A stretch of DNA of 64,000 nt, taken from NCBI RefSeq assembly GCF_027579695.1, contig NC_083570.1, positions 8,914,793 to 8,978,792 of the forward strand. Direction: 5' to 3'. Within the stretch, counting starts at the first letter, position 1; every line of letters starts with the position of its first letter. The stretch is from Neoarius graeffei (taxonomy: Eukaryota; Chordata; Actinopteri; Siluriformes; Ariidae). This document shows positions 18,428 to 64,000 of this stretch, piece by piece. Under the pieces are notes generated by a model that was given only the letters and a program-made list of their open reading frames with translations, was not told where the DNA came from and ran no database searches. Position numbers and translations under genes: made by a program.

Positions 18428-19511
18428 TTATTCTGGGTCACACAATCTCACTGTAGAATCCAAGTTGAGCCCAAACCCAGCGTATAGAGTCTGAGTGAAT
18501 GTGGTGTGGACTCTGTGGAGGAGCTTCATCGTGTCAGAGACGCTGTAGAAGGACAGAGTTCCTGCACTGTGATCCACATACACTCCTATTCTGGAGGCTG
18601 ATGGAACTCTGAGATCAGTCTCAATGCTGTTGTGATAGAAAGAGAGAGAAGAAGAAGAACACCGCAGACTCCAGGACTGATTGTGGAATCCAAACCGACA
18701 CTCATCACCCCGTCCTTTCCTGCTGATGTCTCTATATGAGACTGATATGGACACAACACCAGCACCGCTCCGCTCCACCTCCCAGTAACAGCGTCCACAC
18801 ACACTCTCCTTACACAACACCTGAGTCCAGGAATCAAATCTCTCTGGATGATCAGAGTAACGCTGCTCTCTCTCACTCCATCTCACCGCTCTGTTCTTCT
18901 CAGACAGAATGAGGCGACGATGTGCCGTGTTGGGATCCAGAGTCAGATAACAGAAATCTAAAATAAAAGAGAAAAACAAACTGAACAATGTGAACATGAA
19001 TATCCGCGCTGGGGGCGTGGTCACGAAAACAACAGTTCGGTTGCAGTGAAAACTTTTCTCTGTAGAACCCTGTCACTCCCCCCTCCCCCCACTCTGGGCT
19101 CAAGAACACAGCAAAAGGGCAATAATATAACAACCAATCAGAATTCAGATACAACAACCAATCAGAATTCAGATACATTCTGTTGCCAAGTAAAATTGTA
19201 ACCTGTCAAAGTTCTCGAGCCCTCGTGCTGTTTTACCGTTAGATCAATCACATATCAGCTTAAACTAGCATTCTAAACCTAGTTAAAGATCCCACAGAAG
19301 AGAGCGACTCCCCCTGCCAGCCTCATGGAACTGAATAAGTTGACTTAATTAAAAAGTTGACTGTTCTATGAAAGGGTGTATTTGCATGATCATTATTATT
19401 TTACTCGTGGCATAAAATTGTCTTGAAAAGACGTCAACAATAATATCGTTTATCGCAATAATTTCTGAGACAATATATCGTCCAACAAAATTTATCATCA
19501 TGACAAGCCTA

Positions 19512-22834: not shown

Positions 22835-22872
22835 TTTCCTGAAATCGCAACGAGAGAGAGAGAGAGAGAGAT

Positions 22873-22887
22873 CAGTTTTGTTTTCTC
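22873..22887 (-). promoter_or_regulatory. ISRE-like motif upstream of gene B
   Basis: AGTTTTGTTTTCTCT, identical to the site before A and C, about 40 bases upstream of the ATG. One mismatch to the ISRE consensus. Confidence 0.3.
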
Positions 22888-23061
22888 TGAAATGACAAGT
22901 TACTTCCTGGTTCTGTGTGTGAAAGAGAGAGAGAGAGAGAGGAGGAGCACAAACACAGAGAGGTCATGAACGCTCCTCTATTAACCATTTCATCTCCCTT
23001 CAGTGCAGAAATTTAACCCATGTAGCTGGACTGATTAGGATTAATTTCATGAAATACTCAC

Positions 23062-26031: not shown

Positions 26032-26715
26032 TCCAGCAGCTTGCGGACATCCTGACCTCAGTATTAAAAGCTTCTGTCTGAAAATGAGTTCAGCACAGAA
26101 ACTTCATCGCTGGGGGAAACTTTATTCTCCTGTGCTCTTATCTTTTATTCTGCAAAGCTTTGATTGTAATATTTGAATAAAAATCCCAAACTCACAGATA
26201 AACCTGGATTTATAAGGTTCTAAAAAAAAGTAAATTTTATTCAATGAAACACAACATGCATTTAATACAATTCAATACAACCTCTCTGTCTGTCTCTTTC
26301 TCTCTCTCTTTTCTCTCCAAGTCTTCATAATGGATCACCACCAGAACATTAGTGCATCGATGTTAACTGGACTTCCTGCATGTTTGCACCACCTTGATAA
26401 CTGAAGCTTGATTATGCATTTTCTGAATCATTTAATGAAACAATGTCAGCTGTATGTAATTCGGCTAAAAAGGAGCAACAAACAAACAAACGAACAGTGA
26501 CGAGCCATTTGGGAGCTGAACAAGTCGATTCTGACTGTAAATAGATGTTCAGTCCACATTATGTAGAACATTTTGGAATCATTGTTCAATTCACTGCTTA
26601 TTCATGCAGTGTGACATCCTCACGATACACAACAAGATCTGTTTTTTGTCTTGTTAACTTCAAGAGAGAGAAAAAAGGAGGCTGGTGAGGGAACAACTCA
26701 CTTATAGCTGTTATA
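26032..26715. other. Non-coding spacer
   Basis: 26033-26225 matches the flank of B (18062-18255). The rest, with a CT-rich stretch near 26280-26315, is shared only with 50058-50734. Confidence 0.6.
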
Positions 26716-26845
26716 GAGAGCGTGCACGTGACGTCACGAGGTCACGTGATATTTGTTTATCCGCCATTTTGGACGGCAAGGTCGCGCATAGAACTTAGAC
26801 GAACCCGTTCTAATTATCAAGTGTGTGGGAGTAGATCTTTCGAGA

Positions 26846-27023
26846 ATGGTTATATCTTGTTCAGCATTTGGTTCTACCAATAGACAGGGCCAAAAGGAGG
26901 GCCTGTCATTTTATAGATTCCCCGCAGATGAGGAGAGACGCGCAAAATGGGTGTCCGCTGTGCAAAGAGAAAACTGGAACCCCAGTTCTACCAGCCGAAT
27001 TTGTAGTGAACACTTCATATCAG
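26846..27023 (+). pseudogene. THAP-domain exon of ISL2EU transposase
   Basis: MVISCSAFGSTNRQGQK starts a THAP zinc finger: EGLSFYRFPADEERRAKW, then WNPSSTSRICSEHFIS, ending at a donor GTAGGT. THAP domains bind DNA through a C2CH zinc. The second cysteine is serine here (AFGSTN) but is kept in the other copy near 50890 (AFDCTN). Downstream exons are absent. Confidence 0.75.
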
Positions 27024-27380
27024 GTAGGTGTAATCTTCTAATTCAATACTCCTAGTACATCTGTTAAGTTGATTTTCGGATTGAATGATAACTGCATACT
27101 TAGAAACTAGACAGTCTCTAACGTTTAAAATGGCTATGCCTAGCCCTACTACCCTGGCCTAGTCTATGACAATGTTTTATCTTTTTGGCTCATATATGCC
27201 TTTGAAAGGCCAATCCATAGTAGGGATGGCGAAAACTAAAAAAAATCTTGACCGACCACCGAGCCTCATTAGCCGGTTAAAGTAGGTTAACCTTTGAGTT
27301 TAAACAGGGATGCAAACGGCGGATGCGCCTTTTGCACGGCTGAATCGCGCAGATCCGATTTGGGGGGGGGGGGCGTTGGA

Positions 27381-27749
27381 GTCTCATCTCATCTCATTAT
27401 CTCTAGCCACTTTATCCTTCTACAGGGTCGCAGGCAAGCTGGAGCTGACTACGGGCGAAAGGCGGGGTACACCCTGGACAAGTCGCCAGGTCATCACAGG
27501 GCTGACACATAGACACAGACAACCATTCACACTCACATTCACACCTACGGTCAATTTAGAGTCACCAGTTAACCTAACCTGCATGTCTTTGGACTGTGGG
27601 GGAAACCGGAGCACCCGGAGGAAACCCACGCGGACACGGGGAGAACATGCAAACTCCACACAGAAAGGCCCTCGCCGGACCCGGGGTTCGAACCCAGGAC
27701 CTTCTTGCTGTGAGGCGACAGCGCTAACCACTACACCACCGTGCCGCCA
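27381..27749 (-). repeat. Mermaid-like SINE inside the ISL2EU element
   Basis: Full-length, reverse orientation. A 13 bp target duplication, ggggcgttggagt, flanks it. The matching site at about 51160 is empty, so this insertion followed the segmental duplication. Confidence 0.92.
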
Positions 27750-28049
27750 GGGGCGTTGGAGTGTCTGAATAATTTCATCAAAGTAAATTATGTATTAAAA
27801 TTACTAAATGAGCAAATGCTGTTACAGTCCATGAAACATAGGAAGTATTAGTAATGAGAAGAAGGCAGTTGGTTAGAAAGCTGCGCACATTTGCACAGCT
27901 TCCGCGCAGGCGTGCGCAACTGTTTTTCAGACAAAAACATACATATTTACAACCCTGTCATTATCTGGAACTGAGTTTAGATTACGAACATTCTTAAGAT
28001 AAAACGTCCTGCATAGTCTCTTTATGATAAACATCTTAATGCCACTTAC

Positions 28050-28426
28050 CCGTGAGGTTATCAAGTAGACTTCTTTCTTCGGAACCTTCCAGAGGTATAG
28101 TTGGGATACCCATCCCGCAACAAAATATTTATAAGCTTCCAGGCTCTTGTAAGCTTTGAGGGCTTTGCCAGTGTAACATGATTAATGAGAAAATTGTAAA
28201 TGTCATGGTAGGCCAGATCGGGCAAATCGCCGGCACCGCAGCTCCGAATTTCCCTGAACAAGGATTGCGGCAAGTTGTACGGATCTGCAATCCCCAACCT
28301 GGAACACTTTTCCACGTAACGCTGCCTCACGTCACCTTCAAGATGCTGAACAAACTTAGACAAGTAATCGCGCGATGTAGATGGGGTATTTTCCGAATTT
28401 TCTTGGGGATTACTCCCTGGATCCAT
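28050..28426 (-). pseudogene. N-terminal exon of ISL2EU second (YqaJ-type) protein
   Basis: From MDPGSNPQENSENTPS the frame gives RDYLSKFVQHLEGDVRQ, RYVEKCSRLGIADPYNLP and DLPDLAYHDIYNFL. After a -1 shift it reads CYTGKALKAYKSLEAYKYF and GWVSQLYLWKVPKKEV, up to a donor GTAAGT. These are the conserved N-terminal motifs of fish proteins that carry SWIM-type and YqaJ domains (from memory). The same shift is in the other copy, 51460-51836, so it predates the duplication. Confidence 0.6.
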
Positions 28427-28611
28427 TACGCTCGCGCAAGGTAAACTATCGTGATGCCGTCCAATGTGGCGGAGTACACACGTGCGGGTCACGTGACTGC
28501 ACATCCTCTATAACGATAGTGACGACAGGCTCTAACTCGTTTCATGGACGTTCCACAACATTAAATGTAGATATAAATGGATAAAGAGTATGATGTGTCA
28601 TTTTGTACACT

Positions 28612-29300
28612 GAAAAATACAACGGCAATTCCAAAAAAGTTGGGACGCTGTGTAAACTGGAAATAAAAAGAGAATGCGATAATTTGCAAATCATGGAAAC
28701 CGACATTTCATTGAAAATAGTACAAAGACAACATTTCAAATGTTGAAACTGAGAAATTTTTATTGTTTTTTGAAAAATATACACTCATTTTGAATTTGAT
28801 GTCAGCAAAATGGTTCAAGAAAGTTCAAGAAAGAACGGGGTGTGTTTACTACTGTGTTGCATCACCTCTACTTTTAACAATTCTCTGTTAACATTTGGGA
28901 ACTGAGGAGACCAATTGCTGTAGTTTTGAAAGAGAAATGTTGTCCCATTCTTGCCTGATATACACTTTAAGCTGCTCAAAAGTTTGCGCTCTCCTTTGTC
29001 ATATTTTGTGCTTCATAATGCACCAAATGTTTTCAATGGGAGACAGGTCTGGACTGCAGCAGGTCAGTTCAGCACCCAGACACTTTTACTACAGAGCCAT
29101 GCAGTTTTAATATGCGCAGAAAGCGGTTTGGCGTTGTCTCGCTGAAAGAAGGAAGGCCTTCCCTGAAAAAGATTTTGTCTGGATGGCAGCATATTGCTCT
29201 GAAACGTGTTTATAGAGGAGCTTTCGCATGGGCCGAAAATCTGGAAACCCATTGAGTTGATTTTTCATGGACACACAGGGATCCCAGCCGTGTTCGTCCA
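28612..29300 (-). mobile_element. Degenerate Tc1/mariner-like element
   Basis: The minus strand, read across stops, encodes FFQRDNAKPLSAHIKTAWL and, after the break, SPDLSPIENIWCIMKHKI, QTFEQLKVYIRQEWDNI and LQQLVSSVP, the last two-thirds of a Tc1-type DDE domain. The left end (caattccaaaaaagttggga) is a very common teleost repeat. The 5' part of the gene is missing at the duplication edge. Copy 2 is 52021-52701. Confidence 0.65.
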
Positions 29301-29538
29301 AAATAAGTAAACAACTTGTATATATGTGCAAATGCAATGAAGGAACAGTAATGGTATGAGTGTCAAATTAATGAAAATTATTTAACATGAGAACAAACGA
29401 AGAATACATTTTAACATTTTGAGTCATATGATTAGCATTGTAGTGCTGCCTGTTTTTAGTCTACAATGCTCGTTGTCAAATCTCACATCAGTCAATATAA
29501 ATCTTTTTTTTTGTTATAAAATCAGTAAAAATAACAAA
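29301..29538. other. Spacer at the block edge
   Basis: About 70 bases (29330-29400) match 56891-56960. Nothing coding. Confidence 0.6.
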
Positions 29539-30497
29539 CAGTGGTGCTTGAAAGTTTGTGTACCCTTTAGAATTTTCTATATTTCTGCATAAATATGACT
29601 GAAAACATCATCAGAGTTTCACACAAGTCCTAAAAGTAGATAAAGAGAACCCAGTCAAACAATGAGGTAAAAATATTATACTTGGTCATTTATTTATTGA
29701 GGAAAATGATCCAATATTACATATCTGTGAGTGGCAAAAGTATGTGAACCTTTGCTTTCAGTATCTGGTGTGACCCCCTTGTGCAGCAATAACTGCAACT
29801 AAACGTTTCCGATAACTGTTGATCAGTCCTGCACACCGGCTTGGAGGAATTTTAGCCCGTTCCTCCGTACAGAACAGCTTCAACTCTGGGATGTTGGTGG
29901 GTTTCCTCACATGAACTGCTCGCTTCAGGTCCTTCCACAATATTTTGATTGGATTAAGGTCAGGACTTTGACTTGGCCATTCCAAAACATTAACTTTATT
30001 CTTCTTTAACCATTCTTTGGTAGAACGACTTATGTGCTTAGGGTCGTTGTCTTGCTGCATGACCCACCTTCTTTTGAGATTCAGTTCATGGACAGATATC
30101 CTGACATTTTCCTTTAGAATTCGCTGGTATAATTCAGAATTCATTGTTCCATCAATGATGGCAAGCCGTCCTGGCCCAGATGCAGCAAAACAGCCCCAAA
30201 TCATGATAATTCTACGACCATGTTTCACAGATGGGATAAGGTTCTTATGCTGGAATTCAGTGTTTTCCTTTCTGCAAACATAACGCTTCTCATTTAAACC
30301 AAAAAGTTCTATTTTGGTCTCATCTGTCCACAAAACATATTTCCAATAGCCTTCTGGCTTGTCCACGTGATCTTTAGCAAACTGCAGACGAGCAGCAATG
30401 TTCTTTTTGGAGAGCAGTGACTTTCTCCTTGCAACCTTGCCATGCACACCATTGTTGTTCAGTGTTCTCCTGATGGTGGACTCATGAACATGTAGGT
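29539..30497 (-). mobile_element. Tc1 element, 5'-truncated, catalytic Glu replaced
   Basis: The inverted repeat begins CAGTGGTGCTTGAAAG at 29539. The transposase frame 30447-29758 is unbroken: YVLWTDETKIELFG holds the first Asp and WVMQQDNDPKHISR the second. The third position reads SPDLNPIKILW, where family members have NPIENLW, so the DD34E glutamate is lysine and the enzyme should be dead. The DNA-binding half and the far repeat are lost at about 30497. Confidence 0.85.
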
Positions 30498-30934
30498 GTA
30501 TTATGTTTATGTGTATGTAGATTGGTGTTAAGTGATCAATCTTTAATAATTAAATTGAATCAATCCCATTGAATCATTTAATTTGAATCATTTGAATTGA
30601 ATCATACCATTGAAACAGTCTCATTGAATCAGTCTCATTGAATTGTTTAAATTGAATCATTTAAATTGAATCATTTAAATTGAATTATTTAAATTGAATC
30701 ATTTAGTGAATCATTTAGTGAATCATACCATTATCGGGTATATTCAGAATTATTATGGTCACTTACCAAGCTGCAGCTAATAGTATTCATATACACCTTA
30801 AGAGTTCTTTTGAGATATGGGCGACTTCAAGAAGTATCGGAACAGCAGACAAACACACACAGTTTCAATAATAATGGAATTTATTATAACAAAGATAAAA
30901 ATTGAATAGTAGCAGATGAAATCTTCTGTAAACA

Positions 30935-30965
<31 letters not shown>

Positions 30966-31464
30966 CAAAAGATTAGCTTTGTAGGCTAATTAGACAAAGG
31001 AAGGCTAGCTAGCATGTGTTTGTGTGTAAACAAATGATTGGCTTTCTCAGATATCAATGCGCTGCCGAAGCGCGCAGAAGGTGTTAGTACGCCTGTCATT
31101 ATAGTGCGGACTTTCCATAGCATAGAAAATCGCTACATTTCAATTTGTGTAACTGAACTTGTTTCATATCACTGGTCATATAAACCTATCTAAACAGGAA
31201 AAATGTGGAAGAGTTTGGTCGCATCTAACTACAGCCCCAAAAAATACCGTTGGCTATACTGAGCCTAGCTACATTGCTAACAGGAGTGACAGCGCGTCTG
31301 ACTGCGTCTGACTGACTGGGAGGTCGCGCAAAGCTCGGATAGGTACGGAGCAGCTCGTCTCAATTCAGATAAGAGCATATTTCATTATGGAAATACGGTG
31401 GACTGTTCCTTTAAGGCAAGACGTCCATATTTCTGAAGCTCAGTCTGCTCAGTCCTTTCCAAAG
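30498..31464. other. Repeat-derived non-coding stretch
   Basis: 30530-30730 is a run of 14-base units (attgaatcatttaa and variants). 30514-30930 resembles the start of the insertion at 12699-13060, including its 14-base repeat. A (GT)n run lies at 30936-30961. No exon of the downstream ciliary gene was found here. Confidence 0.55.
30530..30730. repeat. 14-bp tandem repeat
   Basis: Imperfect units of the type tttaaattgaatca. A three-unit version (tctcattaaatcag) occurs at 12729-12768. Confidence 0.8.
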
Positions 31465-32444
31465 GCAATCCGAACATCGGCATCCTGAAGCACAGGGAGA
31501 AATATTACAGCTTCAGCTCCAAGCAGGCTGCGTATCAGTTCGCTTCAAACGCAGACGAGTACATCGAACTGATCGCGGAAAGAGCGAAGAGATCTCCGGA
31601 GCTGATCCAGCTGCTCGAGCTTCATCAGCAGTTTGCCAGCATAACTCCGTACTCTCAGGTATCATGGACGTGTGACTTACTTGTGTCTTCTCCTTCGCAT
31701 CCTTGACCTACTCGCTGATCTCCAACACAAACTCCATTCTCCAGGAACACTCTTAGCCTACAAATATGGCTGATCCAGCACCTACATACTGATCCAACAC
31801 AATCAGTCGCTGCGAATGAAGACTCCACACACACTCTGCACATTAAAACTGCTCAACTGCAATCCCATCCTTGTCCATCTCATCTGTGAGCCTGAGAGTA
31901 ACAGGAAAATAATCAACAACAATGCGGTGAGCCAGTGCAAAGCAGCGTTTCTTAGAAAGTTTGTCTTCACAGATGCAGTCAGGTGAGAAATTGTTGGTGA
32001 AACCCATCAGCAAAAGTGAAAGCAGTACACAGACGGACACACACCTGCTGGAGAGCAACATCGTCAGATCTTACGAGTGGAACGAGTGGGAGCTGAGACG
32101 GAAAGGCATCAAACTGGTAAGCAGCTCCACCTGAAATACACTGGCATGATTAGATTACGCTCAAGCTGTCCGAAAAGCCCTGAAATAAGTTTAACACGTT
32201 ATTTTGTTGAATGCACTCCAAGGCGAACCTGCGCCATAAGGTAACCCACTCAACGCAGACTGACCTGAGCCACATGAGGAGACACAACACCACGCAGACG
32301 TTCCTTCCAAAAGAAGCCGCCTGCCAGACGAAGAGAGACGGACAGAGTAACGTACCGAGACCTCAAGTCTACCTGGCTGGGCTGAGAGGAGGACCAACCA
32401 CTCCCATGACCAAACTCGATTTAACTCCAGATGTGCATGAATAG
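31465..32444 (+). pseudogene. cfap206: Last three coding exons of a cfap206-like ciliary gene
   Basis: Exons 31465-31658, 31973-32116 and 32223-32444 have AG/GT borders and compatible phases. They encode GNPNIGILKHREKYYSFSS, PELIQLLELHQQFASITPY, then SYEWNEWELRRKGIKL, then ANLRHKVTHSTQTDLSHMRR, KEAACQTKRD and NVPRPQVYLAGLRGG to a TAG. From memory this is the conserved C-terminus of CFAP206 (C6orf165), an axonemal protein tied to radial spoke 2 and cilia or sperm motility. The reading is clean, so it is either recently stranded or the tail of a gene with very distant exons. No upstream exon is visible between the window start and 31464, and transposons precede it, so a truncated copy is favoured. 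Confidence 0.7.
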
Positions 32445-33400
32445 TTAATTTGTTCGTTTGTTTGTTAGTTAGACCTAGTATTGAATGTTTGTATTGAATT
32501 GTTGCATTCTGGTTTCTGATTGGCCAGAAAATACTGATTAATTTTCTCTGAAAGTTTTGCAGGCGTATATTAATGCACTCGTTCGAATTTATGGTTTTCA
32601 TCGTACCAGCTCGTTCCCAGGGATTTCTACGATGGACGCTAGACATAAACCGATTTTAAAAATCATTTATACGGTGATGTTTTCGTAACTGAAGGGAGAT
32701 GTTCATTTAGCATTTCTGGAAGGAGTCTCCAGTGTAACAGTCAGAGGTAAAGTTTTGTGACACCTTCAGGACAGAGGAGTTTATGCTTCGCAGTTTCTTG
32801 GTTACAATATGATTTTTTTTTGTCTTATTAACTTTAAGAGAAGGATAATAGGCAGGCTGGTGAGGGAACGACTGTTAATGTAACTATAAATGGATAAAAA
32901 AAAACTATGATGTGAAATTTGTAATTGTTGGCAAAATGCTGTGGTACAAGAGGAATTGTGGGAGATGCTACTTTGGTACCGAATATCAGTCAAAGCAGCG
33001 CGCACACAATTATGAAAATGATCTTATTGGCTCTAATAATATTAAATATTATTATACATACAGGAGACTTTTTCAATGGAATAAAAATGTGTTCTATTCC
33101 CTTCTAGTGGGTTTCATTCATTCGGTTTGGTAGCATGCAATATTGTTAGCGTATCGCTTATCCTACGTGTATTACGTCAGTCTACCCACTAGAGAATGAG
33201 CGTTGAATATTATTTACGATATTGCATGGTTGTCAAGGCAACATTACGTCACATGTCGTAGACGTAAAACTTCCGCGTGAGTGAGCGAGCAACTGTGACA
33301 ATTTGTGAACAAACATAACTTCTACGATTGCTTCGTTAAATACAGAAGATTTTGAGAGAATTTTGAAAGAGAAAGACGCGTTGAACACTCGGAAGGAATG

Positions 33401-33434
<34 letters not shown>

Positions 33435-33873
33435 TTGACTGGCTTTTTTTGTGGTCTATCAGATATATTCCATTCAGCTACTCGTCTTTGACTCATTCAT
33501 TATCATGCTAGCTGAATGGAATATATGTGATATACCACTCAACGCCAGACAATATTTATTTAATTATCCTGAGGAATAACACAGCAGACTGTGAGGTTAC
33601 ACAAAAATAATCCACGCCAGCATGGATTTACCACTTTACCATCTTTGATTTATTAAAAAGTAGCAGGTGTATAAAATGAGATTGAAGCTTCTGCACACAC
33701 ACACACACACACACACACTGTCACACAGCCACACCCCTTTGACAGTCTGCACTCCTACTCTTTTTAAAGCCCCACCCACTCTGGCTCTGTGATATCGTAT
33801 CTCACAGTGCAGCAGGACGCTCATTTCAAAGCACGCAATTCCGATCTCTACTGTATGTGTCGCTCTCTGGAAA
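32445..33873. other. Non-coding spacer upstream of gene D
   Basis: 32810-32925 resembles the sequences flanking the ISL2EU element (26633-26700 joined to 28565-28600). Also holds an (ATA)n run at 33401-33434, a foldback at 33435-33553 and a (CA)n run at 33692-33718. Confidence 0.55.
33435..33553. repeat. Foldback repeat / MITE
   Basis: The arms aatattgactggc...attccattcagct and agctgaatggaat...gccagacaatatt are inverted copies around a 25-base loop. The (ATA)n run adjoins it. Confidence 0.65.
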
Positions 33874-33874
33874 A

Positions 33875-35316
33875 ATGGCTGAGGCCAGTATTTCAGTAGC
33901 TCAGGACCAGTTCATGTGTCCAGTGTGTCTGGATCTCCTGAAGGATCCGGTGACTATCCCCTGTGGTCACAGTTTCTGTAAGGTGTGTATTAATGGCTGC
34001 TGGGATCAGGAGGATCAGAAGGGTGTCTACAGCTGTCCTCAGTGCAGAGACACTTTCACTACAAGGCCTGTTCTACGCAGAAACAACATGCTGGATGAAG
34101 TGGTGGAGAAACTGAAGAAGAAGACTGAAGTCTCATCCTGTTTTTGTGAACACAACACCGAGTCAGGTGCATCAGACAAAGAACAGGTGAGAAGGAGAAA
34201 TGGTTTCAGACTGAATCCTTCGACATTTTGTTTCTAATCCTGCTTTACTCAGGCTATATGGTGTAAAAATGTCATGACTTCTATTGATTATAAATAATAA
34301 ATATGTTCCATGTATCCTGTAGATGTGAACAGTTTTACAAGCACATACTGAGTACCTTTGACCTCACTCAGAGAGAGCCAGGATATGGATGATCTTTAAC
34401 TTGAATTGCAGTTAATAATCTCCCACCTTCGAGCTGTCTTTGAGTGAACACTTTACAGTTAGTAAAGTTAGTATTTAACTCAGGATGTAACATCATTTCA
34501 TTCATTCTTGTCAGAGTGAGTTAAAGTTGAAGGAGGAGCAGATAAAATCCCAGCAGAGAATCCAGGAGAAGCAGAAGAAGGTGCAGGAGCTGAAACAGGC
34601 TGTGAACACTATAAAGGTGAGCAGTGAGCAGAGACAGAGCTGCTCCTAGAAACACACACAACATGGACAACGAGTCATTTACAGTCCCAGTAAGAGAGGG
34701 AATGATAGATGAGCTTTAAATCTTGTGTGTGTCCTAACAGCTCAGTGCACAGACAGCAGTGGAGGACAGTGAGAGGATCTTTACTGAGCTGATCAGCTCC
34801 ATGGAGAAAAAGCGCTGGGAGGTGACGGAGCTGATCAGAGATCAGGAGAAGGCTGAACTGAGTCGAGCTGAAAGTACACTGCTCCGTTTCCAGTCTCTTG
34901 GTGTCTCTTCTGGACGTGGCGACTCATCCATCATTACTGTCCATCAACATGTTTCATTTGATGGAGTGAGGAATTATCTCTCAGAGATGAAAAAGCAATT
35001 CAACAAAATCCCTTCATATGGTGAGAGGAAGTAAAATGTTATAAATCCGCGCATATACATAAAAAAAGATTCATTGTACTTATCTGAACTTAACATTGTC
35101 GCAGCTACCATCTGAAAGATATTTCACTTATACAGTTCATCAGTCATATTAAGATCATTTATTTTGCCAATATTCATAAATTCAAACATCGTGTTTCCTA
35201 AAATCACACTCTGATCATTGTATATTATTCCACCTCCATTTTCTCTCCTTCACAGCAGTTTGGATGAATTTACCTTCAGAGCTGAAGACTCGAGAAGATT
35301 TTCTACAATGTATGTA

Positions 35317-42277: not shown

Positions 42278-44360
42278 TCATTTATGTTCTTTTCCCATTT
42301 TGTCCTTTCTTTCTGTCCATGAAGTGTATGCGGTGAAATCACATTTTAAAATCAGAACTCCAGATATAATTCTATAATATGTGAATACAATCAAGTTGTT
42401 ATTTGGAGTCTCAGTTTTACAGAGTAGCACCACATCACTGAAACACACACAGCCTTTCAACATCAATTCTGTATCTTCACTAAAAGACACACAAGAGGAT
42501 TTACAGCAGGACCGTGTCTTACTACAAGCACTAAAAACTACAGAGACGCTGTAGAAGGACAGAGTTCCTGCACTGTGATCCACATACACTCCTATTCTGG
42601 AGGGGGATGGAACTCCGAGATCAGTCTTAATGCTGTTGTGATAGAAAGAGAGAGAAGAAGAAGAACACCACAGACTCCAGGACTGACTGTTGTATCCAAA
42701 CCCACACTCATTACCCTCTCCTTTCCTGCTGATGTCTTTATATGAGACTGATATGGACACATCACCAGCAGCACCGCTCCACTCCACCTCCCAGTAACAG
42801 CGTCCACACACTCTCTCCTTACACAACACCTGCCTGCAGTAATCAAATCTCTCTGGATGATCAGAGTAACGCTGCTCTCTCTCACTGACTCTCAGCGCTC
42901 TGTTCTTCTCAGACAGAATGAGGAGACGATGTGCCGTGTTGGGATCCAGAGTCAGATAACAGAAATCTAAAATAAAAGAGAAAAACAAACTGAACAATGT
43001 GAACATGAATATCCGCGCTGGGGGCGTGGTCACGAAAACAGCAGTTCGGTTGCAGTGAAAACTTTTCTCTGTAGAACCCTGTCACTCCCCCCTCCCCCCA
43101 CTCTGGGCTCAAGAACACAGCAAAAGGGCAATAATATAACAAGAACCAATCAGAATTCAGATACAACAACCAATCAGAATCCAGATACATTCAGTTGCCA
43201 AGTAAAATTGTAACCTGTCAAAGTTCTCGAGCCCTCGTGCTGTTTTACCGTTAGATCAATCACATATCAGCTTAAACTAGCATTCTAAACCTAGTTAAAG
43301 ATCCCACAGAAGAGAGCCGACTCCCCCTGCCAGCCTCATGGAACTGAATAAGTTGACTTAATTAAAAAGTTGACTGTTCTATGAAAGGGTGTATTTGCAT
43401 GATCATTATTATTTTACTAGTGGCATAAAATTGTCTTGAAAAGACGTCAACAATAATATCGTTTATCGCAATAATTTCTGAGACAATATATCATCCAACA
43501 AAATTTGTTATCGTGACAGGCCCAGAAGCGTGTGTATGTGTGTGTGTTTTAGATTTACATTTCAGAAACTCTTCTCTGCTCTGTGGTTCTGGTTCTGAAA
43601 TGATCTGAACTGCTGCAGCTGTGGAGAGAAAAATAGAAACATGAGTTTGTGTAAAAGATGGAAAGAGTTTAAAGTGATCCAGTCAGTTTATTCATTTTAA
43701 ATCAGTGTTTTAGTTCAAAGTGTCGGGTGAATAAAGTGTCTGCAGAAAAGAAAGCAGGAGCATCGCTAAGAAATAACACATCACTGTGTTTCTCCAGCAG
43801 GAACAGCTCCTCTTACCATGTGGAGGGATTTTGTTGAATTCCTCCTCACAGAATTCCTCGAGTCTCTTTTTCAGATCTGAGAGAGAATTCCTCACTCCAT
43901 CAAATGAGAGATGTTGATGGACAGTGACGCTGGATGTGTGAAAATTTGGTCTGTCCCGTGGAGGAGAGCGACGTCCAGAAGCTAAAACCTACAGAAAGCA
44001 AATGAAATGTAAAACCCACTTGTGATGTCAGACAGGGACATTTATTGTTCCCTTAATGAGAGGTGTTTTAGAGAGTGTGTGAGGAACAGCTGGCTCTGTA
44101 GATCAGACAGTGAGTGTTACCTGGAGGAAATGGATGTGATCGTGTGTGTGTGAAAGCTGCTCCAGCTCAGTGACTCTCCTCTGAAGATCAGCAATCTCCT
44201 GCTCCAGTTGCTCCAGGAGTCGTTCAGCTCGACTCAGTTCAGCCTTCTCCTGATCTCTGATCAGCTCCGTCACCTCCCAGCGCTTTTTCTCCATGGAGCT
44301 GATCAGCTCAGTAAAGATCCTCTCACTGTCCTCCACTGCTGTCTGTGCACTGAGCTGTTA

Positions 44361-44796: not shown

Positions 44797-46853
44797 AATG
44801 TTCACTAACTGGTCTGGGCTGGGTTTCCCGAAAGCCTCTTAAGGCCAAGAGAGTTTTAAATGACCTCTTAAGATCCATCATCAAGCTAACGTGGTTTTCC
44901 CGAACAACATCGTAGCACAAGTCGTCCTTTAGTTTGCTCGGAATTTACGAGAGACCCGGAGCACTCGTTCAAAACAAAGAGCGACTCGCTCGCTGCCGAA
45001 TCCACAGAATGTGCATGCGGCTCTGAGGGACTCTCACAGTCAGCGGGGGAAACTGGGGTTGAATCTGCTGGTGGGGTTCAATTAGTTTTCTTCTACATTG
45101 TAAGTACATTGAGTTAATTATCAGAGGTGGACAGTAACGAAGTACATTTACTTGAGTTCTGTACTTAAGTACACTTTTTGAGTATCTGAACTTTACTTGA
45201 GTATTTTTTTTGGAAACTTATGACTTTAACTTCACTCCATTTGAAAGACAAATATCGTCCTTTTTACTCCACTACATTTCTATCAAGGTCCTCGTTACTC
45301 GTTACTATGAAGCAGCTTTGAAAGTGGATGTTTTTTCTTTTCTAAAACGTGATTGGTTTTTTTCGCAGGTGACACTGAGACAGTCTATCAGTAATCACTA
45401 GGGTCACGTCACGTCCATAGACTGGATAAAATCAAGATCAATGATTTCTCCGCAGCATTATTTAACACGATCAGTTGATGGCAGAATGGAAGGAGACGGT
45501 TCTTCTGGGGAATGCACACACCCACGGTTCTATAGCTAGAACCCATGGTTCAGTTTTCTGAAAGGAATAAAGAGTCATTTTGCTTTAAATGTTTGCTTTG
45601 TTTGCCTAAAACGGAGCACATCACAGCCTACAAAAACTCGCCATCCCACCTGTGGAAGCATATTGAGGGATATAAACGTTTTATTAGCTTGTAGTGAAGT
45701 TGTCTGTGCTTTTAGAGTTAGTGATAATGTTGAAATAACTATGTAGTCTGATTAGTCAAATGATTTTCTGTGGATTTGCCCGCCAAGTTGCCATAGTCTT
45801 GTCCATGGCTAATGTTTACACACAGCTAGTTAACTTGGACACTGTTAGTTATGTCCAATATGATTGCCTTTAGCAGCTACTAATGCCTATATCGGGGACG
45901 CGAACTGCAAAGACCCACTTTGTCCTGTTGCTCTTTAGACTCCTTCTTATGAGTGAATTCCGGAAAACCACACACAGAGACAACGTTCATTCTTTAAGAG
46001 AGTCTCTCAACTCTCTCTTTAGGTCTAAAGGGCAACGTTATCAGGAAACCCACCCGGAACCAGATTACGACCATCACTGAAGATAAATTTAACACTCTGT
46101 TCACCAGAACACAGACAATTTTAATCAGCTTTTACAGAATCCTTCTGATTGAGACACACATTGAAATTAAAGTTCAAATCATATCACTGACTAAAGCACC
46201 TGTTTCTAGATGGGAAACTGTAATTAAGATGATTTAATTCTGGAAAGATTTCTAGTTCTCACCTGTTTCTCAGCTCTTTCTGTTGCAACTGAAACAGCGT
46301 CATGGTCTTTGTGTTTCTCCAACGTGCACAAATAACAGACGCAGGTTTGATCAGTACGACAGTAGATCTTCAGCACTTCACCATGTTCAGAGCAGATCTT
46401 CTCTTGGAGTTTTGCTGAGGCTTCAATTAATGTGTGTTTTTTCAAAGCAGGACGTTCAAGATGAGGTTTCAGATGAATTTCACAAAATGAAGTCAAACAC
46501 ATCAGACAGGACTTGACGGCTTTGTGTTTTCTTCCGGTGCAGAAATCACACTCCACATCTCCAGGTCCAGCGTAACAGTGAGCAGGAGAAGCAGCTTGGA
46601 CTTCAGTCTTCTTCAGTTTCTCCACCACTTCATCCAGCATGTTGTTTCTGCGTAGAACAGGCCTTGTCGTGAAAGTGTCTCTGCACTGAGGACAGCTGTA
46701 GACGCCCTTCTGATCCTCCTGATCCCAGCAGCCATTAATACACACCTTACAGAAACTGTGACCACAGGGGATAGTCACCGGATCCTTCAGGAGATCCAGA
46801 CACACTGGACACATAAACTGGTCCTGAGCTACTGAAATACTGGCCTCGGCCAT
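42278..46853 (-). CDS. finTRIM gene C, SPRY C-terminus replaced
   Basis: Exons in coding order: 46853-46263 (RING, B-boxes), 44610-44515, 44354-44121, 43988-43817, 43618-43559 and 42966-42278. The first five match gene B exactly in structure, with a canonical RING (PCGHSFC). B-box 2 differs from B (CSEHGEVLKIYCRTDQTCVC). The last exon is normal up to GVYVDHSAGTLSFYSVS. There a deletion of about 1.74 kb has fused it to sequence from the 3' flank (equivalent to 16795 downward in copy B). The roughly 35 residues that close the SPRY (KLLHRVHTTFTQ... to the end) are lost, and about 85 unrelated residues, ending KDKMGKEHK, are read instead. The frame stays open, but the beta-sandwich lacks its last strands, so target binding is doubtful. 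It may be a pseudogene in practice. Confidence 0.8.
44720..44797. repeat. (GT)n(GA)n microsatellite, longest copy
   Basis: Intron 1 of gene C. Homologous to 20719-20778. Confidence 0.95.
44812..46065. mobile_element. Nested DNA transposon remains, intron 1 of gene C
   Basis: Third copy of the hAT-containing insert described at 1060-2705, SINE-free. The BED-like finger (CFKCLLCLPKTEHITAYK) is legible near 45580-45680. Confidence 0.6.
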
Positions 46854-46890
46854 TTTCCTGAAATCGCAACGAGAGAGAGAGAGAGAGATC

Positions 46891-46905
46891 AGTTTTGTTT
46901 TCTCT
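46891..46905 (-). promoter_or_regulatory. ISRE-like motif upstream of gene C
   Basis: AGTTTTGTTTTCTCT, as upstream of A and B. Confidence 0.3.
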
Positions 46906-47084
46906 GAAATGACAAGTTACTTCCTGGTTCTGTGTGTGAAAGAGAGAGAGAGAGAGAGAGAGAGGAGGAGCACAAACACAGAGAGATCATGAACACTCCT
47001 CTATTAACCATTTCATCTCCCTTCAGTGCAGAAATTTAACCCATGTCGCCGGACTGATTAGGATTAATTTCATGAAATACTCAC

Positions 47085-48404: not shown

Positions 48405-50057
48405 CAGTGTCTTGCAAAAGTATTCATCCCCCTTGATGTTTGTCCTGTTTTGTCGCATTACAAGCTGGAATTAAAATGGATGTTTTGGAGGGTTAGTACC
48501 ATTTGATTTACAAACCATGCCGACCACTTAAAAGGTGAAAATTGTTGTTTTATTGTGACACAAACAATATTTAAGATAAAAAAGACAGAAATCTGGAGTG
48601 TGCATAAGAATTCACCCCCAAAGTCAATACTTTGTAGAGACACCTTTTGCTGCAATTACAGCTGCAAGTCTCTTGGGGTATGTCTCTATTAGCTTAGCAC
48701 ATCTAGCTCCTGGGATTTTTGCCCATTCCTCAAGGCAAAACTGCTCCAACTCCTTCAAGCTAGATGGGTTGCATTGGTGTACAGCAATCTTCAAGTTATG
48801 CCACAGATTCTCAGTTGGATTGAGGTCTAGGCTTTGATGAGGCCATTCCAAGATATTTAAATGTTTCCCTTTAAACCACTCCAGTGTAGCTTTAGCAGTA
48901 TGTTTAGGGTCGTTGTCCTGCTGGAATGTGAACTTTTGTCTCAGTCTCAAACCTCTGGCTGACTTAAACAGGTTTTCCTCCAGAATTGCCCTGTATTTAG
49001 TGCCATCCATCTTTCCTTCAGTCCTGACCAGCTTTCCTGTCCCTGCAGACAAAAAAGATCCCCACAGCATGATGCTGCCACCACCATGCTTCACTGTAAG
49101 AATGGTGTTCTCAGGGTGATGGGTTTGCACCACACAGGGTGATGGGTTTGTGTTTCCCATGATGGCCAAAAAGATCAATTTTGGTCTCATCTGACCAGAG
49201 AATCTTCTTCCATGTGTTTGGGGAGTCTGCCACATGCTGTTGGGCAAACTCCAAACATGTTTTTTATTATTATTATTATTATTTTCTGTAAGTAATGGCT
49301 TTTTTTTCCTGGCCACTCTTCCATAAAGCCCCGCCCACTCTGTGAAGTGTACGACTTAAAGTGGTCCTATGGACAGATACTTCCATCTCCGCTGTGGATC
49401 TTTGCAGCTTCTTCAGTGTTATCGTTGGTGTCTTTGTTGCATCTCTGATTAATGCCCTCCTTCCCCGGTCTGTGAGTTTTGGTGGGCGGGGCCTTCTCTT
49501 GTCAGGTTTGTAGTGGTGCCATATTCTTTCCATTTTGCTATAATGAATTTAATGGCACGCCATGGGATATTCAATATTTGGGATATTTTTTATAACCCAA
49601 CCCTGATCTATACTTCTCCATAACTTTGTCTCTGACCTGTTTGGAGGCTCCTTGGTTTTCATGTTGTTTGTTTTGTCATGTTACAGAGTCAGGGTCCTTC
49701 CAGAATAGGTTGATTTATATAGACACCATGTGACAGATCATGTGACACTGTGATTGCACACAGGTGGCTCTTAATCAACTAATTATGTGACTTATGAAGT
49801 GAATTGGTTGGACCAGCTCTTATTTAGGGGTTTCATATGAAAGGGGTGAATACATATGCACACTCCAGATTTCTGGGTTTTTTTCATCTTAATTATTGTA
49901 TGTGTTACAATAAAACAACAATTTTTACCTTTAAAGTGGTTGGCATGTTGTGTAAATCAAATGGTGCTAACTCTCCAAACATCCATTTTAATTCCAGCTT
50001 GTAAGGCGACAAAACAGGACAAACACCTAGGGGGATGAATACTTTTGCAAGACACTG
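48405..50057 (-). mobile_element. Tc1/mariner element, copy 2
   Basis: Passenger in the duplication; 1653 bp against 1650 in copy 1. It shares the same frameshift pattern, so it was already dead. The DDE parts QQDNDPKHTAK and DLNPTENLW are kept. Confidence 0.9.
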
Positions 50058-50734
50058 TCCAGCAACTTGCGGACATCCTGACCTCAGTATTAAAAGCTTC
50101 TGTCTGAAAATGAGTTCAGCACAGAAACTCCATCACTGGGGGAAACTTTATTCTCCTGTGCTCTTATCTTTTATTCTGCAAAGCTTTGATTGTAATATTT
50201 GAATAAAAATCCCAAACTCACAGATAAACCTGGATTTATAAGGTTCTAAAAAAAGTAAATTTTATTCAATGAAACACAACATGCATTTAATACAATTCAA
50301 TACAACCTCTCTCTGTCTCTTTCTCTCTCTCTTTTCTCTCCAAGTCTTCATAATGGATCAGCACCAGAACATTAGTGCATCGATGTTAACTGAACTTCCT
50401 GCATGTTTGCACCACCTTCATAACTGAAGCTTGATTATGCATTTTCTGAATCATTTAATGAAACAATGTCAGCTGTATGTAATTCGGCTAAAAAGGAGCA
50501 AGAAACAAACAAACAGTGACGAGCCATTTGGGAGCTGAACAAGTCGATTCTGACTGTAAATACCTGTTCAGTCCACATTATGTAGAACATTTTGGAATCA
50601 TCGTTCAATTCACTGCTTATTCATGCAGTGTGACATCCTCACGATACACAACAAGATCTGTTTTTTGTCTTGTTAACTTCAAGAGAGAGAAAAAAGGAGG
50701 CTGGTGAGGGAACAACTCACTTATAGCTGCTATA
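50058..50734. other. Non-coding spacer, copy 2
   Basis: Partner of 26032-26715. Confidence 0.6.
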
Positions 50735-51918
50735 GAGAGCGTGCACGTGACGTCACGAGGTCACGTGATATTTTTTTATCCGCCATTTTGGACGGCAAGG
50801 TCGCGCATAGAACTTAGACGAACCCGTTCTAATTATCAAGTGTGTGGGAGTAGATCTTTCGAGAATGGTTATATCTTGTTCAGCATTTGATTGTACCAAT
50901 AGACAGGGCCAAAAGGAGGGCCTGTCATTTTATAGATTCCCCGCAGACGAGGAGAGACGCGCAAAATGATTTTATCTTTTTGGCTCATATATGCCTTTGA
51001 AAGACCAATCCCTAGTAGGGATGGCGAAAACTAAAAAAATCTTGACCGACCACCGAGCCTCATTAGCCGGTTAAAGTAGGTTAACCTTTGAGTTTAAACT
51101 GGGATGCAAACGGCGGATGCGCCTTTTGCACGGCTGAATCGCGCAGATCCGATTTGGGGGGGCGCATTGGAGTGTCTGAATAATTTCATCAAAGTAAATT
51201 ATGTATTAAAATTACTAAATGAGCAAATGCTGTTACAGTCCATGAAACATAGGAAGTATTAGTATGAGAAGAAGGCAGTTGGTTAGAAAGCTGCGCACAT
51301 TTGCGCAGCTTCCGCGCAGGCGTGCGCAACTGTTTTTCAGACAAAAACATACATATTTACAACCCTGTCATTATCTGGAACTGAGTTTAGATTACGAACA
51401 TTCTTAAGATAAAACGTCCTGCATAGTCTCTTTATGATAAACGTCTTAATGCCACTTACCCGTGAGGTTATCAAGTAGACTTCTTTCTTCGGAACCTTCC
51501 AGAGGTATAGTTGGGATACCCATCCCGCAACAAAATATTTATAAGCTTCCAGGCTCTTGTAAGCTTTGAGGGCTTTGCCAGTGTAACACGATTAACGAGA
51601 AAATTGTAAATGTCATGGTAGGCCAGATCGGGCAAATCGCCGGCACCGCAGCTCCGAATTTCCCTGAACAAGGATTGCGGCAAGTTGTACGGATCTGCAA
51701 TCCCCAACCTGGAACACTTTTCCACGTAATGCTGCCTCACGTCACCTTCAAGATGCTGATCAAACTTAGACAAGTAATCACGCGATGTAGATGGGGTATT
51801 TTCCGAATTTTCTTGGGGATTACTCCCTGGATCCATTACGCTCGCGCAAGGTAAACTATCCTGATGCCGTCCAATGTGGCGGAGTGCACACGTGCGGGTC
51901 ACGTGACTGCACATCCTC
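50735..51918. mobile_element. ISL2EU-type transposon, copy 2
   Basis: Same ends and TA flanks as 26716-28508. It lacks the SINE and about 225 bp that in copy 1 include the end of the THAP exon and its donor (junction near 50969). It retains the YqaJ-type N-terminal exon at 51836-51460 (minus) with the shared -1 shift. The THAP start near 50872 keeps both first cysteines (SCSAFDCTN). Confidence 0.65.
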
Positions 51919-52020
51919 TATAACGATAGTGACGACAGGCTCTAACTCGTTTCATGGACGTTCCACAACATTAAATGTAGATATAAATGGATAAAGAGTA
52001 TGATGTGTCATTTTGTACAC

Positions 52021-52701
52021 TGAAAAATACAACGGCAATTCCAAAAAAGTTGGGACGCTGTGTAAACTGGAAATAAAAAGAGAATGCGATAATTTGCAAA
52101 TCATGGAAACCGATTTTTCATTGAAAATAGTACAAAGACAACATTTCAAATGTTGAAACTGAGAAATTTTATTGTTTTTTGGAAAATATACACTCATTTT
52201 GAATTTGATGTCAGCAAAATGGTTCAAGAAAGGACAAGGGTGTGTTCACTACTGTGTTGCATCACCTCTACTTTTAACAATTCTCTGTTAACATTTGGGA
52301 ACTGAGGAGACCAATTGCTGTAGTTTTGAAAGAGAAATGTTGTCCCATTCTTGCCTGATATACACTTTCAGCTGCTCAAAAGCTTGCGGTCTCCTTTGTC
52401 ATATTTTGTGCTTCATAATGCACCAAATGCTTTCAATGGGAGACAGGTCTGGACTGCAGCAGGCCAGTTTAGCACCCAGACTTTTTTACTACAGAGCCAT
52501 GCAGTTTTAATATGCGCAGAAAGTGGTTTGGCGTTGTCTCGCTGAAAGAAGGAAGGCCTTCCCTGAAAAAGATTTTGTCTGGATGGCAGCATATTGCTCT
52601 GAAACATGTTTATAGCGGAGCTTTCGCACGGGCCGAAAATCTGGAAACCCATCGAGTTGATTTTTCATGGACACACAGGGATCCCAGCCGTGTTCGTCCA
52701 T
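52021..52701 (-). mobile_element. Degenerate Tc1/mariner-like element, copy 2
   Basis: Partner of 28612-29300, ending at the duplication edge. Confidence 0.65.
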
Positions 52702-60756: not shown

Positions 60757-61289
60757 TTATTCTGGATCACACAATCTCACTGTAGAAACCCAGTAGACCC
60801 CAAACCCAGCGTATAGAGTCTGAGTGAATGTGGTGTGGACTCTGTGGAGGAGCTTCATCGTGTCAGAGACGCTGTAGAAGGACAGAGTTCCTGCACTGTG
60901 ATCCACATACACTCCTATTCTGGAGGCTGATGGAACTCTGAGATCAGTCTCAATGCTGTTGTGACAGAAAGAGAGAGAAGAAAAAGAAGAACAGCACAGA
61001 CTCCAGGACTGATTGTTGAATCCAAACCGACACTCATTACCCCGTCCTTTCCTGCTGATGTCTTTATATGAGACTGATATGGACACAACATCAGCACCGC
61101 TCCACTCCACCTCCCAGTAACAGCGTCCACACACACTCTCCTTACACAACACCTGCTCCCAGGAATCAAATCTCTCTGGATGATCAGAGTAACGCTGCTC
61201 TCTCTCACTGCCTCTCACCGCTCTGTTCTTCTCAGACAGAATGAGGTGACGATGTACCGTGTTGGGATCCAGAGTCAGATAACAGAAAA
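60757..61289 (-). pseudogene. finTRIM gene F, PRY/SPRY exon only
   Basis: Open SPRY exon with acceptor at 61290-61291: FCYLTLDPNTVHRHLILS, CGRCYWEVEWSGADVVSIS, GVYVDHSAGTLSFYSVSD, ending CDPE. Closest to gene B. The intron continues homologous to B until about 61649, where a Penelope-like element begins. None of the five upstream exons is in the window; they may lie right of 64000 or be lost. Confidence 0.75.
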
Positions 61290-61649
61290 CTAAAATAAAA
61301 GAGAAAAACAAACTGAACAATGTGAACATGAATATCTGCGCTGGGGACGTGATCACGAAAACAGCATGTTCGGTTGCAGTGAAAACTTCTCTGTAGAACC
61401 CTGTCACTCCCCCCACTCTGGGCTCAAGAAGACAACAAAAGGGCAATAATATAACAGCCAATCAGAATTCAGATACATTCTGTTGCCAAATAAAATTGTA
61501 ACCTGTCAAAGTTCTCGAGCCCTCGTGCTGTTTTACCGTTAGATCAATCACATATCAGCTTAAACTAGCATTCTAAAACTAGTTAAAGATCCCACAGAAG
61601 AGAGCGACTCCCCCTGCCAGCCTCATGGAATTGAATAAGTTGACTTGTC
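61290..61649. other. Last intron of F, truncated
   Basis: Matches 18958-19342 of gene B, then stops abruptly at the retroelement. Confidence 0.75.
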
Positions 61650-62389
61650 TGTGAAGATTCTCAAATCATCCAGGTCATCGTAAACTGTGGGTGGTAGAAA
61701 AGGGCAACTGGACTTGCTTGAAGATTCTTGAAAACCTTTCACCTCTCATCCGAAAGGCTTCCTAAGTTCTGTCTGACTAATAGGGAGTATCAGATATTTA
61801 TCCTCTCCTGGATCAGAATCAGAATTCTGATGACAAGCTCATCTAAGGTGTCGTTGAGGCATCATGTTGGTGTGGGTCACTGGAGGCTGGGTGTGAACGG
61901 CGAGTCATTAGGGTGATCAAAGGATTGCCCGTTAGGGTGATCAATGGAAAGCTGACTCTCTCTGTCCTCCTGTGAGTCACTGAAAACAGCTGGGTCCTGG
62001 CGTACACCAAGCCGTCTGGGAAGAGTGTCCAAGACCGCATTGTAGCTGGTTGATAAATGATGTCTTAGACCCCCACCTCTGTTCAGTGATGGCCGTTCCA
62101 GGTTGACAAAAATGGCTTCTTTAACTCCTCGCTCATACCAACAAACCTCTCTGGCTAAAATGCGTACGTTAAAATCCTGAAATGAGTGTCCTTTGTTGTT
62201 AAGATGAATGTAGACAGCCAAGTCCTGGCCTGAGGAGCTGGCTCTCCTGTGTTGAGCCAAGTGCCTGTATTGAGGTATTTCACTCACGTGACCAAGTCAT
62301 GTGATGCTGCCATTTTGGACGGCACGGCTCGAATCAGTTTGAATGCGAGGAAGGCGACAAACGAAAAACATAAAAGAAAAAGGAGCGAG

Positions 62390-62530
62390 ATGCAGAAAAC
62401 ACCTTCACTATCCAGCGACGTAGGGCATTTACAGGGCGAGCAGAGGGAGAGGTATTTGCAAAAATTGAGGTTAGCAGGCTTAGAGAATGACGTTTACCTG
62501 CTTCCACCAGGATTGTTCACTGACAGCTAA
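62390..62530 (+). pseudogene. N-terminal piece of ISL2EU second (YqaJ-type) protein
   Basis: MQKTPSLSSDVGHLQGEQR, RYLQKLRLAGLENDVYLLP, then PGLFTDS and stop. It is clearly related to RYVEKCSRLGIADPYNLP in the elements at 26716 and 50735 but diverged. The nuclease domain is absent. Confidence 0.5.
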
Positions 62531-62632
62531 GGTTTGTTCACATTTTCATTTACTTTCGGTCCTCAGGATAAACAAAATGTTATTAAATGTCATTGAAATA
62601 ACTTCTTAGTCTGTTGAGACATGGCCCGGTAT

Positions 62633-63394
62633 AAGTTTTTCCTTTACTGTATTTACTAGTTTACTGAGCGCGCTCCGGGGCGGGCTGGCTGGCACTAGCT
62701 AGCTAGCGCTCCGGGGCTGGCTGGCTGGCACTAGCTAGCACTCCGGGGCTGGCTGGCTGGCGCTAGCTAGCGCTCCGGGGCTGGCTGGCTGGCGCTAGCT
62801 AGCTAGCGCTCCGGGGCTGGCTGGCTATCGCTAGCTAGCTAGCGCTCCGGGGCTGGCTGGCTATCGCTAGCTAGCTAGCGCTCCGGGGCTGGCTGGCTGG
62901 CGCTAGCTAGCTAGCGCTCCGGGGCTGGCTGGCTGGCGCTAGCTAGCTAGCGCTCTGGGGCTGGCTGGCTGGCGCTAGCTAGCTAGCGCTCTGGGGCTGG
63001 CTGGCTGGCTAGCTAGCTAGCGCTCCGGGGCTGGCTGGCTGGCTAGCTAGCTAGCGCTCCGAGGCTGGCTGGTTGGCTGGCTAGCTAGCGCTCCGGGGCT
63101 GGCTGGCTGGCTGGCTAGCACTCCGGGGCTGGCTGGCTGGCTAGCCAGCGCTCCGGGGCTGGCTGGTTGGCTAGCTAGCTAGCGCTCCGGGGCTGGCTGG
63201 CTGGCTGGCTAGCTAGCTAGCTAGCGCTCCGGGGCTGGCTGGCTGGCTAGCTAGCCAGCTCCGGGGCTGGCTGGCTGGCTAGCCAGCTCCAGGGCTGGCT
63301 GGCTGGCTAGCCAGCTCCAGGGCTGGCTGGCTAGCTAGCCAGCTCCAGGGCTGCCTGGCTCAGTAAACTAGCAAATCCAGTAAAGGAAAAACTT
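62633..63394. repeat. Minisatellite framed by inverted arms
   Basis: The arms 62633-62669 (aagtttttcctttactg...actagtttactgagc) and 63358-63394 are inverted copies of about 37 bp. Between them are about 20 tandem units of roughly 30-36 bp built from GCTCCGGGGCTGGCTGG and runs of CTAG/GCTA, with later units carrying CTCCAGGG. The GC-rich unit has many AGCT palindromes. Confidence 0.88.
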
Positions 63395-64000
63395 GAGACT
63401 GAAAGGTTTTAACAGTCATCCAAATGACTGAACGTAAACAGTGTTACAGTAACATACCAGCTACTGTTGTTGACATTAGCTAGCTTGCCGTCCAAAACGG
63501 CGGACACCGGGGCGTCACGTGACCCTGTGACGTCAGGTGAAATACCTCAATAGCGGTTGTTTTGTTTCCCCAATATATGTGTCCATGCATTCCTCACTGC
63601 ACTGAATCGCATACACTATGTTGTCCTGTTTGTGTCTGGGTATTCTGTCCTTAGGGTGGACCAATTTCTGCTTCAGGATGTTACTGGGTCTGAAATGTAC
63701 CGGAATGTTGTGTTTGTAGAAGATACTCCTGAGTTTCTCAGATAGACCAGAAATGTAGGGAATGACAATGTTCTTGCATTTGTTCCTGTTATCATCCTTG
63801 TCCATTATGTTCCTTTTTATGCTCTTTAGGAAAGCCCAGTTGGGATACCCACAGTTCTGAAGTGCTTTCTTGATATGATTCTGCTCCTTCTCTTTTCCCT
63901 CTATCGTTGTAGGAATGTTCTGAGCCCTGTGTTGCAAGGTCCTAATGACCCCCAATTTATGTTCCAGTGGGTGGTGAGAGTCGAAAAGTAGGTACTGGTC

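Follow-up and report, generated by a model that had tools for sequence, protein, structure and literature searches.

A GC-rich minisatellite in the hairpin loop of a non-autonomous ISL2EU-type transposon and its probable origin at that loop

Results and Discussion

The centre of a transposon's own inverted repeat probably keeps yielding tandem duplications, and a GC-rich minisatellite in the window (the whole 64,000-nucleotide stretch of DNA analysed here) would be one of their products. The transposon, a non-autonomous element of ISL2EU type, is present in many copies and in two forms, which we term form A and form B. Between its inner arms lie loops of 1, 1.5, 2, or many units, in some copies of a different unit sequence, and the arrays change beside flanks that are identical.

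A minisatellite between the inner arms of the element

The sequence-only reading, an earlier account of the window, had described a hairpin-prone, GC-rich minisatellite between 37 bp inverted arms, placed inside an element with terminal repeats of its own. This anatomy holds (Table 1). The form-A element is flanked by TA at 62268-62269 and 63551-63552, and its ends are imperfect inverted repeats. Its two arms are complementary at 35 of 37 nucleotides and enclose an array of 688 bp and 71% GC, which consists of 20 full units of 28-42 bp and a 16-bp part (TRF: period 36, 20 copies, score 757). Compared with 20 dinucleotide shuffles, single-stranded DNA of arms and array together (62633-63394) folds 18 s.d. 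beyond their mean, in agreement with the hairpin-prone character assigned to the insert. What had been called CTAG palindromes are runs of TAGC/AGCT tetrads.

Table 1. Positions of the form-A element and its parts in the window
Feature	Position	Strand	Remark
Non-autonomous ISL2EU-type element, form A	62270..63550	+	further copies found
Left part, 363 bp, including the left terminal repeat	62270..62632	+	
46-codon frame, left over from the start of the element's second ORF (not the transposase)	62390..62530	+	aligns with ORF 51471-51914 (-)
Left inverted arm, 37 bp	62633..62669	+	shorter than form B arm
Loop minisatellite, 20 units GCTCCGGGGC(NGGC)n(TAGC)m and a partial unit	62670..63357	+	
Right inverted arm, 37 bp	63358..63394	-	
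89 bp adjoining the right arm	63395..63483	-	repeated inverted beside the left arm in form B
Right part, 156 bp, including the right terminal repeat	63395..63550	-	

Along the array, GCTCCGGGG becomes GCTCCAGGG in the last units, so that the gradient noticed earlier is real in this copy. Moreover, the similarity between units drops with their distance (Spearman -0.46; as low in 0 of 5,000 shuffles), and identical units occur in the left half of the array (units 4, 7, and 8; units 5 and 6). Thus, duplication has been local and not restricted to one end. Canonical G-quadruplex motifs are absent from the array, Rfam gives no match at gathering thresholds, and neither the arm nor the unit has a match in the viral contigs searched. 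A literature match to the sequence letters, 14 bases of a pig promoter, was discarded as a chance match, judging by the title of the paper.

The terminal repeats (62270-62340 and 63480-63550) contain CACGTG, TGACGTCA, and CCGCCATTTTG-like motifs, which we take to be E-box, CRE, and YY1 sites. The transposon ends might serve as promoters.

Form A recurs with arrays of widely differing length

Copies were sought in the window's own assembly, a single assembly of 2.34 Gb. A query spanning the arm-array junction and including 24 array bases yielded 811 first-look candidates; 40 matches were scored, and all 40 match at 61/61. The 39 form-A copies fetched are these 40 minus the window. In all 39, the left arm adjoins the same left part, and in 38 the right arm adjoins the same right part, while the truncated copy L042 is without right arm and right part. 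The arrays of the window and of the 38 fetched copies measure 144-2,690 bases (median 580), and the joined element ends of these 39 array copies deviate by a mean of 0.97% from the majority base. TA is found on both sides of TTGAGG...CCTCAA in 32 of 39 copies.

A second sample, for which the query was limited to the left part (1,388 first-look candidates; 20 of 40 scored matches taken), contains the arm and the array start in 20 of 20 copies. In three of them the array amounts to only 46-48 bases, or 1.5 units, with a core of 16-18 bp on either side of a spacer. Form-A arrays in the copies read extend from 46 to 2,690 bp. With its short non-coding body, inverted ends, target duplication, many copies, and variable array, the element has the make-up of a MITE with an internal tandem repeat.

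Form B and arms with short loops

A genome search had been proposed to see whether the arms occur alone or always with the minisatellite, and arms without it are indeed found at 20 places, where the loops measure 2-30 bp. In this search, both inner arm ends (14 bases each, exact) were required with a spacer of 0-30 or 31-60 bases, giving 20 and 295 places, respectively, and 0 places in both spacer classes with a reversed-pattern control. All 20 places with 0-30-base loops lie inside the same element: 7 are form A, 12 are form B, including the rearranged copies L073 and L079, and one (L071) is truncated on the left.

In form B, the inverted repeat extends through 89 bases of the right part, giving arms of ~126 bases each. 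The form-B left junction has 3,192 exact matches in the genome (1,603 + 1,589). Form A would be form B with most of the left arm gone and 37 bp kept; we favour the direction from B to A because one deletion at a 2-base match suffices for it, while the reverse needs an insertion that mirrors the right part. Mean divergence in the 150 bases after the right arm is 2.1% for the 39 array copies, 3.9% for the 12 form-B copies, and 6.6% for the 7 short-loop A copies, values that suggest an age order and, since the three groups were sampled differently, do no more than suggest it. Homogenisation of the arms is at most weak, as 93 of 5,000 random pairings are as close (10 form-B copies).

Several unit types occupy the same loop

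The loops form a series from TA, which makes L070 a perfect palindrome, through 6-30 GC-rich bases and single A units to arrays. The single A unit GCGCTCCGGGGCTGGCTG is the loop of both L082 and L083. Ten form-B copies, chosen solely by the B junction and all from the first part of contig C1, were read across the loop, and six of the ten carry tandem arrays of 25-34 base units (25, 29, 30, or 34). The loop of L091 holds 2 x 29 bases and that of L090 8 x 30, while L093 and L099 carry a 30-base unit that repeats with 100% identity as far as the sequence was read (at least 266 and at least 267 bases). The array of L096 (C1:15747220-15747519) is mirrored, with 4 x 25 bases forward, nine bases, and 5 x 25 inverted. 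A 34-base unit is present in 4.6 copies at 72% in L092. The loops of L095, L097, and L098 (37, 51, and 62 bases) contain no clear array, that of L097 having weak 10-14 base repeats by TRF, and L094 has a complex loop with no array. Arm ends are altered in both L092 and L094, whose long loops are unlike the others and include other palindromes with A/T-rich pieces (CTCAAATTAAGC); the two copies are perhaps a further sub-form of B.

Several of these units also occur singly. Among 50 listed of the 295 places with 31-60-base loops, inspection by eye identified eight A-like loops as well as loops with one copy each of the L099 unit (C2:24399266), the L096 unit (C1:106623154), and, as a near match, the L090/L093 unit (C1:2213312). 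Four identical 40-bp loops among the listed places may be duplicates of one locus. Units of different types have the motifs GCGCTC and GGGAGC in common (by eye); because of these common motifs the unit types are probably related, yet each has been amplified in its own copies.

Loops also occur in opposite orientation relative to the element, as in L078 versus L089, L074 versus L075, and L085 versus the A arrays. Except for two additional bases, the loop of L085 is the same as the beginning of a B loop (0 of 1,000 shuffles as good), and it ties the A loops to the B loops. In the other three comparisons of L085, 2, 7, and 23 of 1,000 shuffles are as good, and for two other A loops compared with B loops the numbers range from 12 to 381 of 1,000.

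Arrays change faster than their flanks

Near-identical duplicated loci within this one assembly reveal that arrays change faster than their flanks. The flanks of L039 and L040 are identical over 600 and 3,537 bases (4.1 kb), with arrays of 1,234 and 1,010 bases; L033 and L034 have flank identities of 99.7% and 99.5% and arrays of 892 and 590; and between the window and L030 the element ends do not differ and the 600 bases to the left agree at 99.2%, with arrays of 688 and 564. The arrays of L043 and L044 have the same length (458 bases both). The window/L030 pair, in whose comparison part of one fetched stretch was masked, fits a segmental duplication with 95.6% identity over 5,141 bp, and retrotransposition of the surrounding sequence was rejected as its cause. 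We take this surrounding sequence to be Penelope-like; Pfam finds nothing in it. Compared with its duplicate L030, the window carries extra CCAGGG units at the right end, as growth from one end, proposed earlier from the gradient, would have it, but the middle of the array differs as well, and this proposal thus stands only weakly.

All 855 full units in the 39 arrays have even lengths, 719 of them leaving a remainder of 2 when divided by four. In these 719 units, a 10-base core is followed by tetrads, namely TGGC (1,269), TAGC (1,102), and CGGC (653). Of 816 pairs of adjacent units, 187 are identical, whereas 500 shuffles within arrays give 66 on average and never more than 85 (39 arrays), which supports local duplication or slippage, the latter already put forward in the sequence-only reading, as the source of array length. 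With regard to growth from one end, identical neighbours number 15, 35, 36, 52, and 47 by array fifths from left to right and are fewest at the left, yet CpG loss in the core is without a right-end gradient (14, 10, 12, 9, and 8; 39 arrays in both counts).

Proposed repeat birth at the hairpin loop and its alternatives

The origin that we consider probable starts from a high-copy non-autonomous ISL2EU-type transposon with an inner inverted repeat and a loop, presumably mobilised by an ISL2EU transposase. In replication or repair, the loop would most likely fold as a hairpin, upon which a short sequence would be duplicated in tandem, leading from short to long loops. The self-complementary edge motifs (GCTAGC, GCGCGC, GAGC/GCTC) could provide both direct and inverted repeats for slippage: self-complementarity makes loop edges such as GCTAGC and GCGCGC at once arm ends and direct repeats, and an edge of this kind is part of the B units. 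Slippage between the edges, aided by the hairpin, would then duplicate edge and loop together, as the Haber-Louis model explains how minisatellites originate, with a motif enclosed by short direct repeats between which slippage occurs (PMC6947457); in contrast to that model, the edge repeats here are self-complementary and lie at the hairpin tip. Related but distinct loop sequences would give rise to separate arrays in different copies, the window array being of the form-A type. Once present, an array would expand and contract by local unit duplication and by 4-bp tetrad changes that outpace mutation of the flanks. Folding is strong in the shortest A form, that of 1.5 units (z -11.7), but of four sequences of single A units tried, three do not surpass shuffles, the exception being one register. 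The loops of opposite orientation and the mirrored array of L096 suggest that the arms fold or exchange in vivo, with the caveat that inverted short loops could derive independently from longer loops.

Alternatively, the family might have spread already with a GC-rich array, the short loops being contracted remnants, the units having diverged by ordinary minisatellite turnover, and the hairpin having no role. The motifs that the unit types have in common and the fast turnover of the arrays agree with this account; by eye, the TA loop can be what remained after a longer loop lost the stretch between AGCTAGC repeats, and all short loops could be contractions. We nevertheless regard it as unlikely, although it deserves some weight: single-copy loops are known for several unit types, the mirrored array and the inverted loops point to folding or arm exchange, and the right part is more diverged in the 12 B copies than in the 39 array copies, a comparison between differently sampled groups. 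Selection on the element could instead keep the array, if the units acted as extra transposase sites or if a long loop spaced the arms and rendered the palindrome milder. There is precedent in available excerpts for both versions, as the THAP transposon Galileo has internal tandem repeats with extra transposase sites (PMC4079207) and palindromes are less recombinogenic with longer spacers (PMC7999016). Here, however, the units resemble the rest of the element over TAGCTAGCTTGCC alone (4 of 500 shuffles as good) and short-loop copies exist at hundreds of places, so that such selection seems improbable. The resemblance over TAGCTAGCTTGCC is at the same time a weak hint that the array may have been seeded from the right end of the element.

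A third nested foldback, as in the sequence-only reading, would have arms and array enter the ISL2EU element as an insertion of their own and would explain why the arms bound the array exactly. Yet in the copies read the arms always sit in the same element (39 of 39 for the left side, 20 of 20 for the places with short loops), form-B arms run on into the element's own right part, and by eye there is no target duplication around the arms; we therefore hold this explanation to be very improbable.

Returning to repeat birth at the hairpin loop, a more specific and more tentative version is possible, in which hairpin-templated copying at the palindrome centre would make the loop a repeat nursery. 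In a single family exceeding 3,000 copies, single-copy loops would repeatedly become arrays, some of them mirrored, whose units differ (25, 29, 30, 18-42, and perhaps 34 bp). If this version is true, transposon-borne palindrome centres would be a general source of GC-rich minisatellites. How a minisatellite is first duplicated is usually inferred after the fact. Here, one genome presents, at one anatomical site, loops whose unit number goes from 1 through 1.5 and 2 to many, together with mirrored arrays and different unit types. Since the copies can be dated by their near-identical element ends, it could be measured directly how fast and by which routes arrays are born, and the many loci would be informative length markers for the species.

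Relation to known satellite-bearing transposons

The comparisons in this section refer to the available excerpts of the cited papers. It is already known that transposons carry micro- and minisatellites (PMC9659126; PMC6947457; PMC4079207). Examples among MITEs are Xmix/Xstir, miDNA4, the lepidopteran (GTCY)n elements, and rice minisatellites (PMC9659126; PMC6947457), and, like the present family, these are short non-autonomous transposons that spread a tandem array of variable length. They differ in that here several distinct units occur in one hairpin loop of one family, in single-copy, doubled, and mirrored states. The foldback elements Tetris and Galileo also combine long inverted repeats with tandem repeats, and Galileo has a possible further likeness in a link to a THAP transposase; however, their tandem repeats are located within the terminal inverted repeats (PMC4079207) and not, as here, in the loop between inner arms. 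In the literature searched, which lies mostly outside subscription journals, no paper was found to describe more than one unit originating in the hairpin loop of a transposon.

Assignment to ISL2EU and other elements of the window

ISL2EU elements are DNA transposons of the PHIS superfamily with a THAP/DDE ORF and a YqaJ ORF (PMC4482050; PMC9179366), and have a 2-bp AT target duplication at the target A|AT|T (PMC4482050), as stated in the accessible parts of these papers. The ISL2EU-type host proposed from the sequence alone is supported by homology of the ends and of one short ORF, no transposase with these ends having been seen. Inverted ends are common to both, and two further window elements, at ~50.7 kb and 26.7 kb, have the same end motif as the form-A element (77% over 56 bases). 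The 26.7-kb element is a duplicate of the ~50.7-kb one, with a THAP domain at the other end (Pfam, 1.3e-14), and thus resembles ISL2EU in having a THAP ORF and a second ORF at opposite ends. The 46-codon frame aligns with the start of the ~50.7-kb element's ORF at 51471-51914 (-), a score reached in 0 of 2,000 shuffles. BLASTP and Pfam are silent on this frame, and Pfam, run on N-terminal parts, finds no YqaJ match in the remnant or in the part of the 50.7-kb element's second ORF that lies in the window. We assume that this second ORF is the YqaJ ORF. YqaJ genes do exist in the genome, with 71 matches, none of them linked here to form-A element ends. Nine of the 71 lie at C17:1.0-4.6 Mb, where the best have open frames over 500 aa.

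In contrast to ISL2EU, the form-A element is non-coding save for the 46-codon remnant. Moreover, neither a palindromic inner part nor an array is described for ISL2EU in the available text of PMC4482050 and PMC9179366, and the term "tandem repeat" appears in neither paper. The element ends begin TTGAGG or TGAGG, and ISL2EU terminal inverted repeats usually begin GG. The junction TAT-TGAGG/CCTCA-ATA is readable as an AT duplication too; the A|AT|T context was not seen.

The window also contains a duplication spaced ~24 kb apart, between 25500-35000 and 50000-52500 and again between 19083-19346 and 43092-43359, with 97.3-97.5% identity over the longer pieces. RING-type ORFs, TRIM-gene-like by eye, and a PRY-SPRY ORF (2.6e-21, 3e-12), presumably finTRIM-like and so suggestive of a fish, are found among 2861-3535, 22205-22963, 33743-34237, 46224-46916, and 60757-61461.
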